A stretch of DNA of 43,331 nt. It comes from Spirochaetales bacterium (lineage in GTDB: Bacteria; Spirochaetota; Spirochaetia; Treponematales; UBA12059). This document shows positions 36,645 through 38,522 of the stretch, in pieces. A program made the position numbers and the translations under genes. The first letter of the stretch is position 1, and each line of letters opens with the position of its first letter. The stretch lies in contig JAFGNN010000067.1 of NCBI GenBank assembly GCA_016926955.1, forward strand, positions 1 to 43,331. The letters are read 5' to 3'. The notes under the pieces are model-generated. The model was not told the DNA's origin, did not search any database, and saw only the letters and a list, made by a program, of their open reading frames with translations.

Positions 36645-37010
36645 TCAGCGGGAATCGCCGGATTCGATATAGCGTCTGACCTTGCTGATCTTGCGGCCCA
36701 GGAGCTCGGTTATGGCCTTCGGCTCCTCGTGGCGGGTGACGAGGTCGAGGGCGCCCTTCCGGACCACATCCACTACTTCGTCGATACTTTTATATAGCGA
36801 GCCCTGTATTCCGTCAACGAAAAGAGCCAGTTCCCGGCACGATTCCTGCTCTCGCAACAGCAAGGCGCCATTTTCGCGATAGACGTAGGGGGTGACTTCC
36901 GAACGCTCGTAACGTTCGCGCAGACCGGTATCGATGGCGGCCAGATCTTCGGCCAGATCCTCGAGCTCGGCGCGCAGGATGCCCAGGAAGAACGTGACCC
37001 TGTCGGACAC
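36645..37010 (-). CDS. Small protein at the head of the V-ATPase operon
   Basis: This 121-residue protein starts at GTG 37010, chosen because AAGGAGG lies 6 nt upstream; an ATG 33 codons earlier would put the promoter inside the gene. The sequence (V-T-F-F-L-G-I-L-R-A-E-L-E-D-L-A-E-D-L and I-D-E-V-V-D-V-V-R-K-G) is highly charged and helical, possibly a coiled coil with a C-terminal basic helix R-K-I-S-K-V-R-R-Y. No known family was recognised. As first gene of the operon it could be an assembly factor or a substitute for the missing subunit G. That assignment is inference. Confidence 0.65.
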   Translation of the reverse strand: MSDRVTFFLGILRAELEDLAEDLAAIDTGLRERYERSEVTPYVYRENGALLLREQESCRELALFVDGIQGSLYKSIDEVVDVVRKGALDLVTRHEEPKAITELLGRKISKVRRYIESGDSR

Positions 37011-37047
37011 CGGACGCCTCCTTATGTGCCTATTCGCGCTCACTGAA

Positions 37048-37075
37048 AGTATAGGGAAGCTACATCGCGGTACAA
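37048..37075 (-). promoter_or_regulatory. Promoter of the V-ATPase operon
   Basis: On the minus strand TTGTAC (37075-37070) and TATACT (37053-37048) are 16 nt apart. Transcription from about 37041 leaves a leader of about 30 nt with AAGGAGG before the GTG at 37010. Confidence 0.6.
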
Positions 37076-37117
37076 GGTGAAAATGCGCAGGGGAAGGTTC
37101 ATGGTTCATCGGAGTGC

Positions 37118-37146
37118 TTGACCATCCCTCCCGGGCGTGTTATATT
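37118..37146 (+). promoter_or_regulatory. Strong promoter at the head of the tRNA-Gly leader region
   Basis: TTGACC (37118-37123) and TATATT (37141-37146) have an exact 17 nt spacer. The next gene on this strand is the tRNA at 37635, nearly 500 nt away, so a long untranslated RNA or separate small RNA is implied. Confidence 0.65.
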
Positions 37147-37151
37147 CATCT

Positions 37152-37263
37152 CAAGAACTTCGCGTCCCGCAAGGGTCGCCCGGCAGCCGAGAGGCTTGCC
37201 ACTTCGCGTCCCGTTACGGGGCGCCCCGTTTCCGACGCCGTTTCGCCACGACGTCTTTTTTTT
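37152..37263 (+). ncRNA. Candidate small structured RNA (unidentified)
   Basis: Downstream of the strong promoter two 44-nt units both start with ACTTCGCGTCCCG (37157 and 37201). Hairpins are visible: GGCAGCC-GAGA-GGCTTGCC (37182-37200, one bulge) and the palindrome ACGGGGCGCCCCGT (37216-37229). Eight T residues at 37256-37263 could end the RNA, although the stem before them is weak. No open reading frame with a ribosome binding site fits. It does not match 4.5S, 6S, tmRNA or RNase P as far as I can tell. Confidence 0.3.
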
Positions 37264-37306
37264 GCCCCGAGCCGCCGTCCGTTCACCACCGTCCCGCGTG
37301 GACGAA

Positions 37307-37389
37307 GATGAACGAGCCGAACGACGGCAACCTCAAGCGCGCCGGTCGTACACCGCAGCCCCGAAGGGGCGAGGATGAACGAGCCGAAC
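37307..37389 (+). repeat. 16-nt direct repeats with 67-nt period
   Basis: GATGAACGAGCCGAAC occurs at 37307-37322 and 37374-37389. Between them lies a partial copy (GACGGCAACCT and GCGCCGGTCGTAC, about 37323-37350) of the longer repeat at 37430 and 37543. Confidence 0.6.
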
Positions 37390-37429
37390 CATAGCTTCGC
37401 GCGCGCCGAGCGCGCACGTGAATCGACGA

Positions 37430-37609
37430 GGTCGTACGGCGAGAACCCGAGCTAGCGCGAGGGCCTCGAGCCGAACGACGGCAACCTTGAACGTGAATCG
37501 CGGTCCGGACGAAGGCCGGCCGCGATGAACAATAATCGCGCCGGTCGTACGGCGAGAACCCGAGCTAGCGCGAGGGCCTCGAGCCGAACGACGGCAACCT
37601 TGAACGTGA
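37430..37609 (+). repeat. Perfect 67-bp direct repeat upstream of tRNA-Gly
   Basis: Positions 37430-37496 and 37543-37609 are identical over 67 bp, with a 113-nt period. After each copy the sequence continues with TCGCGG and, some way later, with an AATCGCGCCGGTCGTA block that matches the start of the tRNA gene (37632-37647). Confidence 0.85.
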
Positions 37610-37634
37610 GTCGCGGAAGCGACGAACTATAATC

Positions 37635-37706
37635 GCGCCGGTCGTATAACGGCTATTACCCCAGCCTTCCAAGCTGGAGACGAGGGTTCGACTCCCTTTC
37701 GGCGCT
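37635..37706 (+). tRNA. tRNA-Gly (anticodon UCC)
   Basis: The 72-nt sequence folds into a complete cloverleaf. The acceptor stem GCGCCGG/TCGGCGC (one G-U) closes it. The anticodon stem CCAGC/GCTGG holds the loop CTTCCAA with TCC at 37668-37670. The T arm is GAGGG-TTCGACT-CCCTT. The D arm closely resembles E. coli glycine tRNA (UCC). The CCA end is not encoded; TTCA follows. A terminator lies 10 nt downstream. Parts of the 5' end are repeated upstream. Confidence 0.95.
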
Positions 37707-37715
37707 TCAATCGTG

Positions 37716-37743
37716 CGGCCCGCCACCAGGCGGGCCGTTTTTT
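37716..37743 (+). terminator. Terminator of the tRNA-Gly transcript
   Basis: A 9 bp perfect stem (37716-37724 with 37729-37737), loop ACCA, is followed by six T residues. Confidence 0.9.
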
Positions 37744-37880
37744 ATCGGGGATTCGGCGACGGCTAAGGAAACGGCACCAATACCGCCCGTAAACGCTGAC
37801 GCGCCGCCTCGTGACGGGGCATGGCGAGCTGGGGCTCCGGCGGCTGTTTCCCCCTCCTTCCCTTCTGCTATAGTCGCGGC

Positions 37881-38522
37881 ATGCCGAACCGCTTCGCGCG
37901 CCGCATCAGGGATGGCGAGATCGACAGCCCGGAGGCGCTGGCCTCGGAATTCCGCGCGCTCGCGAAGGCGACGCATCCGGACCTGGCCGGTCCAGGCGCC
38001 GATCCGCAGGAATTCGTCAGGGTGCGCGCCGAGTACGAGACAGCCCTCCGCGATTTCGAACGGCACCGCTTCGGCTCGCGGAAAGCTGGCGCCGAAGCGG
38101 AGTCCGAACGCGGCGGGAGCTTCGCCGCCGAATCTTTCCGCGCATGGACGGCCCTCGGGCTGCTCCTCAAGCGCGGATTTCCGAAGGAACCCCGCCACGA
38201 GAAAGAGAGGCTCCGTTACGAGTACGCGCTCTGGCGGCTCGCCCGGGAACTGCCCGCTCTCGGAGAGGACGCGGCCCGCCGCTTCGGTCCCTTCGCTGCG
38301 GCCATGTCGGTGCTCAAGGGAAGCTCGCCCGCGGAAACCCGCCGCGTGGTCGCGCTCCTCCGGGAGCTGCTCGAGTACCGCCGCACAGGCATCGAAGCCT
38401 TGCGCACCTCGATAGCGCACGGGCTCGAAACGCTCAGGCGGAGTCCTCTCGATCCCTCCCTGGTCGCCTTCATGGAGGCGCTTGCAGGCATACGGCTCGA
38501 TTCCGGCGCGCCGCCCCCGTGA
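37881..38522 (+). CDS. J-domain-like protein of unknown function
   Basis: This 213-residue protein begins MPNRFARRIRDGEIDSPEAL, then F-R-A-L-A-K-A-T-H-P-D-L-A-G (about residues 24-37). The H-P-D tripeptide after an alternating helix and the following helix R-A-E-Y-E-T-A-L-R recall a J domain that would stimulate a DnaK-type chaperone. The remaining residues 75-213 are helical and rich in Arg, Glu and Leu, with no recognised family. The ATG at 37881 has no Shine-Dalgarno, and a -10-like TATAGT (37869-37874) lies only 6 nt before it, so this mRNA may also be leaderless. No good -35 box was found. Confidence 0.65.
   Translation: MPNRFARRIRDGEIDSPEALASEFRALAKATHPDLAGPGADPQEFVRVRAEYETALRDFERHRFGSRKAGAEAESERGGSFAAESFRAWTALGLLLKRGFPKEPRHEKERLRYEYALWRLARELPALGEDAARRFGPFAAAMSVLKGSSPAETRRVVALLRELLEYRRTGIEALRTSIAHGLETLRRSPLDPSLVAFMEALAGIRLDSGAPPP

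Follow-up and report, generated by a model that had tools for sequence, protein, structure and literature searches.

Why should the start of a tRNA gene recur, without the rest of the gene, in the DNA that precedes it? The question is raised by a tRNA-Gly(UCC) gene in the 43,331-nt stretch of spirochaete DNA analyzed here (the window), whose host genome, G000, measures 3.38 Mb. The window and its relatives, of which those with names found by pattern search are Spirochaetota MAGs, share a module whose architecture suggests an undescribed switch on the making of tRNA-Gly.

The leader of tRNA-Gly(UCC)

The first 12 nt of the tRNA, GCGCCGGTCGTA, occur three times in the window, as exact copies beginning at 37339 and 37538 and in the gene itself, and were not found on the opposite strand of the whole window. 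A further tRNA-start copy is degenerate (gacgaGGTCGTA, ending at 37436). The preliminary description of this DNA had reported such copies at 37338 and 37538; they are real and exact and the second position was correct, but the first copy starts at 37339. Its other two observations, that the copies lack the rest of the tRNA and that a perfect 67-bp repeat begins at 37430 and 37543, were confirmed. The repeat (37430-37496 and 37543-37609) is nested in a 93-nt pair that is 90% identical, with a spacing of 113. The 12-nt copy appeared in none of 2000 dinucleotide-preserving shuffles of the leader, and the longest repeat was 67 nt in the real leader versus a maximum of 12 nt in 30 shuffles. The array went unreported by Tandem Repeats Finder. 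The features of the locus are as follows.

37118-37146, plus strand: sigma-70-type promoter, TTGACC-17-TATATT with TG before the -10 box; the sole promoter-like site in 37000-37850
37153-37233, plus strand: structured first part of the leader, with two ACTTCGCGTCCCG hairpin repeats (37153-37225), between promoter and terminator
37234-37263, plus strand: hairpin resembling an intrinsic terminator, with eight T after it, between promoter and tRNA; near-identical in G001 and G002
37264-37338, plus strand: degenerate first unit, with antisense ACGACGGC-AACC at 37321-37332 (from sequence reading and repeat analysis)
37339-37350, plus strand: exact copy of tRNA-Gly nt 1-12
37351-37424, plus strand: remainder of the degenerate second unit (hairpin and linker)
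37425-37537, plus strand: third unit, with the degenerate 12-nt copy (37425-37436), a hairpin, antisense ACGACGGC (37475-37482), AACC, a long second hairpin (37497-37526) and a tail
37538-37549, plus strand: exact copy of tRNA-Gly nt 1-12, opening the fourth unit
37550-37634, plus strand: fourth unit, with an inner hairpin, antisense ACGACGGC (37588-37595), AACC (37596-37599), a second hairpin GTCGC-GGAA-GCGAC (37610-37623) and a tail reaching the mature tRNA start
37635-37706, plus strand: tRNA-Gly(UCC)
37715-37738, plus strand: terminator 3' of the tRNA

The -10 box of the promoter lies 488 nt from the tRNA-Gly start, compared with 10-53 nt for other lone tRNA genes with a detectable promoter in the same genome. 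A TATAAT at 37628-37633 was ruled out as the -10 box of tRNA-Gly by its position, because it ends one base before the mature tRNA. Judging from the sequence, tRNA-Gly may be transcribed from the distal promoter at 37118-37146. G001 and G002, relatives in the same genus, also have this promoter ahead of the array as well as the terminator, with two units in G001 and at least three in G002. The leader through the terminator gave a fold z of -2.5 and the fourth unit one of -2.9, and the two ACTTCGCGTCCCG hairpin repeats could possibly form a ligand or antiterminator fold. At the gathering threshold, Rfam reported only the tRNA in the window. A small ORF directly 3' of tRNA-Gly (37821-38522) had no Pfam match and was also found in G001.

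The array is specific to its gene. Among the 45 tRNAs of G000, only tRNA-Gly(UCC) is preceded by copies of its own start; a single 11/12 near-match belonged to a tRNA-Ser within a tRNA-Ser cluster.

A conserved module in related genomes

We read the leaders at 95 tRNA-Gly(UCC or CCC) loci and found a shared module plan in three families of the order, at many loci in families f1 and f4 and in genus g18 of f5, preceding tRNA-Gly(UCC) and/or tRNA-Gly(CCC). Each module runs from a copy of tRNA nt 1-12 through a hairpin-bearing spacer of 16-61 nt to an antisense segment, ACGACNNN, complementary to tRNA nt 4-11; then follow (A/T)(A/T)CC in most modules, a linker of ~9 nt, a hairpin of 5-8 bp, a tail of ~10 nt, and the next copy or the real tRNA. 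Unit length ranges from 77 nt (L124) to 122 nt (L132). In all clear cases, across families and isoacceptors, the antisense starts at -45 to -51 (about 48 nt) relative to the next tRNA start. In f4 modules, a second complement lies immediately 3' of the copy and offers it another pairing partner. Hairpin 2 often carries a GNNAA pentaloop (GAGAA, GAAAA, GGGAA or GACAA), as in L025, L078, L122, L132 and other f4 units, which recalls lambdoid boxB loops.

A covariance model, R1, was built on the antisense-to-copy part. It matched the third unit of the window at 37475-37549 (E = 3.0e-8) and the fourth at 37588-37646 (E = 1.1e-11), and gave 66 matches, spread over 25 of the 47 genomes selected; wherever the neighbourhood was read, the match belonged to a tRNA-Gly(UCC/CCC) leader or to an array truncated by a contig end. 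On a phylum sample of 149 genomes, R1 matched in the window's genus alone. A DNA pattern combining copy and tRNA matched 6 of 394 genomes of the order, with no match in family f3. Because about half of the searched genomes in the module-bearing families are without the module, it is dispensable. Copy numbers in these genomes are minima, since MAG assemblies may collapse repeats.

The copies track the tRNA that they precede. Of 39 parsed copies, representing seven tRNA variants, 34 are identical to the start of their own tRNA over all 12 nt; these counts leave out L085, whose units parsed poorly, and the affected L005 units were aligned by eye. In G009, copies read GCGACCG in the UCC array and GCGGCCG in the CCC array, so that each array fits its own gene and not the other array. 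The tRNA of G071 reads GCGACTG, and the matching change is present in both copies and both antisense segments, in two units that are otherwise 40-70% alike. Similarly, in the diverged arrays L126, L122, L134 and L080, spacers are 46-60% identical, compared with 92-100% for the copy and 88-100% for the antisense. In the window's genus, the antisense is imperfect (ACGACGGC, ACGATCGC, ACGACCGC, ACGAACGC). The retention of matched copy and antisense amid diverged spacers points to selection, or to a copying process aimed at exactly these parts.

The pairings are supported by compensatory change. For copy and antisense (21 distinct pairs), 87.5% of cells were paired and covariation was 0.233, versus 0.085 in shuffled controls, which ignore relatedness among the sequences (reached in 0 of 500), and at most 0.098 in slid controls, which retain it. 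For antisense with tRNA together with hairpin 2 (24 sequences), 90.1% were paired and covariation was 0.239, versus 0.081 shuffled (0 of 500) and at most 0.114 slid, although covariation does not separate this pairing from that of copy and antisense, because the antisense tracks the tRNA partly through the copy and the letters are shared. Both hairpins of the module show compensatory changes. By the measure of compensatory change in predicted helices, the module counts as a conserved structured RNA.

No Rfam family matches the module. Low-threshold matches such as SpF41 and miRNA were set aside, being below the cut-offs and mostly overlying the tRNA itself, and a Bathyoplasma match at L089 proved to be ordinary tandem full tRNA genes. 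The element is likewise undescribed in the openly accessible literature; subscription papers lay outside this scope, so the absence is weak evidence, and the element may be called novel with respect to Rfam and these open sources.

A possible leader switch and its rivals

Our leading interpretation, with a probability of roughly 0.4, is that the array is a bistable pre-tRNA leader controlling the folding of tRNA-Gly and its maturation by RNase P. Such a leader would consist of one to several modules, each with a copy (C, tRNA nt 1-12) and an antisense (A, against nt 4-11). A could pair either with the C of its own unit, forming hairpin 1, or with the real 5' strand of the tRNA (T), and C might displace T opposite the 3' acceptor strand. 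The pre-tRNA would then choose between two folds: in one, A:C pairing leaves the tRNA correct; in the other, A:T pairing traps the 5' end of the tRNA. This competition would set the share of tRNA-Gly that folds correctly and that RNase P cuts at the right junction. An earlier checkpoint may be added, in the window's genus, by the terminator between promoter and array. The module is conserved; its function as a leader, including the switch itself and the signal that would drive it, we infer from sequence.

Energy models permit both folds. When only the antisense part is present, the models predict upstream pairing of the tRNA 5' strand while the tRNA is still incomplete; at many loci, adding the copy reduces this pairing. 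For the finished transcript, an equilibrium model pairs the 3' acceptor strand with the copy at a mean of 0.70, versus 0.18 with its own 5' strand, estimates that reveal the existence of competing folds and not the fold used. Predicted bistability alone proves nothing, because any copy of the tRNA 5' strand would compete in folding. Unless folding is kinetic, the misfold, often favoured at equilibrium, would carry a cost, the gene being single-copy.

Among the ideas offered in the preliminary description, whose interpretation is partly supported overall, a tRNA-like regulatory leader fits best, because of the specificity, the covariation and the long leader with its terminator. We prefer the leader switch for three reasons. 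Structure in the leader by the cleavage site can slow RNase P, as with inhibitory 5' leader stem-loops such as that of E. coli valVW (PMC9433436); the module keeps its geometry and its hairpin 2; and terminators stand between promoter and gene in tRNA-Gly leaders of this clade, namely in the window and in L114, L115, L118, L121 and L133.

The strongest competitor is a repeat, selfish or converting, that targets the start of tRNA-Gly; we consider it a serious, if doubtful, possibility. Such an element would insert after nt 12 of tRNA-Gly, multiply by unequal crossing-over and be homogenised by gene conversion, its RNA structure being tolerated or serving its own spread; the tRNA would be restored intact because the insert carries a copy of nt 1-12 at its end. 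The first copy indeed lies 13-21 nt after the -10 box in L134, L128, L016, L006, L008 and L126, where the tRNA starts in module-free genes, and the inserted part is not derived from the tRNA. In L115, a unit stands between terminator and tRNA, whereas in its congeners L118 and L121 the tRNA follows that terminator directly. Copies are tandem, mirror-image modules occur at the 3' ends of other tRNAs, and in G050 the UCC array shares 92% identity with the CCC array, which indicates conversion or copying between the loci. However, no copy was found outside tRNA-Gly in the searched genomes: G000 has no second copy of the array at unrelated loci (the preliminary description had named copies at many unrelated loci as an outcome that would count against it), the matching f4 genomes have none beyond the two tRNA-Gly loci, and the R1 matches show none. 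No transposase or integrase was found nearby, in a test that covered tyrosine integrases. If purely neutral, the copies would be expected to decay as the spacers have, but copy and antisense still match each other where units have diverged, and the antisense distance is fixed over three families. The earlier suggestion of past integration at the tRNA end survives in this form, as targeted insertion.

That the array is an RNase P decoy or processing array is unlikely. On this reading, the tail-copy junctions would mimic the leader-tRNA junction, and hairpin 1 with its 3' ACC the acceptor end, yielding small RNAs of ~97 nt or slowing RNase P. Unit borders do coincide with the mature tRNA 5' end and (A/T)ACC follows the antisense in most units, but the units offer no full mimic of acceptor and T-stem, and RNase P cleavage at a unit border is not expected from the fold, because the predicted helix begins at nt 3-4 and not at nt 1.

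Neutral tandem slippage at the tRNA 5' end with concerted evolution, free of function or mobility, is already disfavoured and seems improbable. Tandem duplication, which the preliminary description had proposed as slipped duplication, does occur: near-identical tandem units are present in L021, L025, L124 and L132, and recent duplication is also visible in L004. It does not account for the origin of the array, because the part between copies comes neither from the tRNA nor from an ancestral leader and the architecture with its fixed antisense recurs in three families; the antisense and the conservation of copy and antisense in diverged units are likewise left unexplained. Very improbable are remnant attachment sites of an integrative element, for which tRNA genes are common sites, or an assembly artefact, which the preliminary description had raised against itself and to which the arrays that end contigs (G002, G009, G018, G131, G135) might point: no integrase gene lies on the contig of the window, the four Phage_integrase genes of the genome being on other contigs, phage matches cover the tRNA itself only and plasmid matches were none, the window copies sit inside the contig, and the module is present in the complete genome G031 of another family (one contig, 3,239,340 bp) and in the 10-contig G015.

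Related elements and significance

RtT RNA, from the E. coli tyrT operon, consists of tandem repeats beside a tRNA gene that carry a copy of the tRNA end within the tRNA transcript, and Rfam contains it. The array described here likewise adjoins a tRNA gene and carries a tRNA-end copy. However, RtT copies derive from the 3' end and lie downstream of tRNA-Tyr, whereas the present ones derive from the 5' end and lie upstream of tRNA-Gly only; RtT gave no Rfam match in the window or among the low-threshold matches of the relatives, and the features that define it were absent. We know of no antisense/copy covariation in RtT. T-boxes, which regulate mRNAs by binding the anticodon and acceptor of a tRNA, also tie a leader RNA to a tRNA, and L011 reads TGGTACC. 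A T-box riboswitch was rejected, since Rfam returned no T-box at threshold, the TGG is unconserved (GGC, GGT, AGT, AGC) and the bases that precede ACC change with the tRNA. The array resembles integrative elements in tRNA genes in that the insert restores the tRNA through a copy of its end, but the units here are 65-110 nt long, gene-less, tandem, at the 5' end and without an integrase. Inhibitory pre-tRNA leaders differ in being single stem-loops or leader:RCCA pairs, without copies of the tRNA 5' strand, antisense or arrays (PMC9433436).

Other tRNA genes of these spirochaetes have elements of their own. Mirror-image modules were observed at tRNA 3' ends in the host genome (L033, L039, L042, L056, L059, L061, L068, L070, L072) and in relatives (L004, L010, L011). 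Behind the trailer and terminator they have a reverse-complement copy of the last ~18-20 nt of the tRNA and a GC-rich body with recurring GGAGGCGG-like motifs; most loci add a direct copy of the last ~17 nt, and several of these repeat trailer and terminator. Each matches its own tRNA. Before tRNA-Gly(CCC), a leader of the form TTTTCCGGCATG..CATGCCGCCCTATTTCAGTCCNTCG..CGANGGGCC.. is conserved in two related genera (L114, L115, L118, L121, L133), with an intrinsic terminator just before the tRNA or unit; it appears attenuator- or riboswitch-like and is absent from Rfam. A different conserved structured leader, GCGCGCATCGCGCGTCCCGAGG..CTTCAGGGAGCGCGG.., precedes tRNA-Gly(CCC) in genus g9 (L125, L135, L137).

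We tentatively suggest that the array may represent a new class of cis-acting RNA, a pre-tRNA leader in which serial copies of the tRNA's 5' strand, and an antisense, exchange partners with the tRNA and so govern how it matures; the class would occur in part of one spirochaete order and only at tRNA-Gly(UCC/CCC), and other tRNAs may carry a mirror-image counterpart at their 3' ends.

The module supplies a search model for other clades. If the selfish repeat is the true explanation, a repeat would be parasitising the start of an essential tRNA gene while leaving the gene intact, and the element would be better placed among tRNA-associated repeats than as a wholly new class. The usual view puts the control of bacterial tRNA genes at the promoter and in turnover. 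A leader that works by strand exchange, if true, would give codon-specific translation a new control point, acting on a single isoacceptor family.
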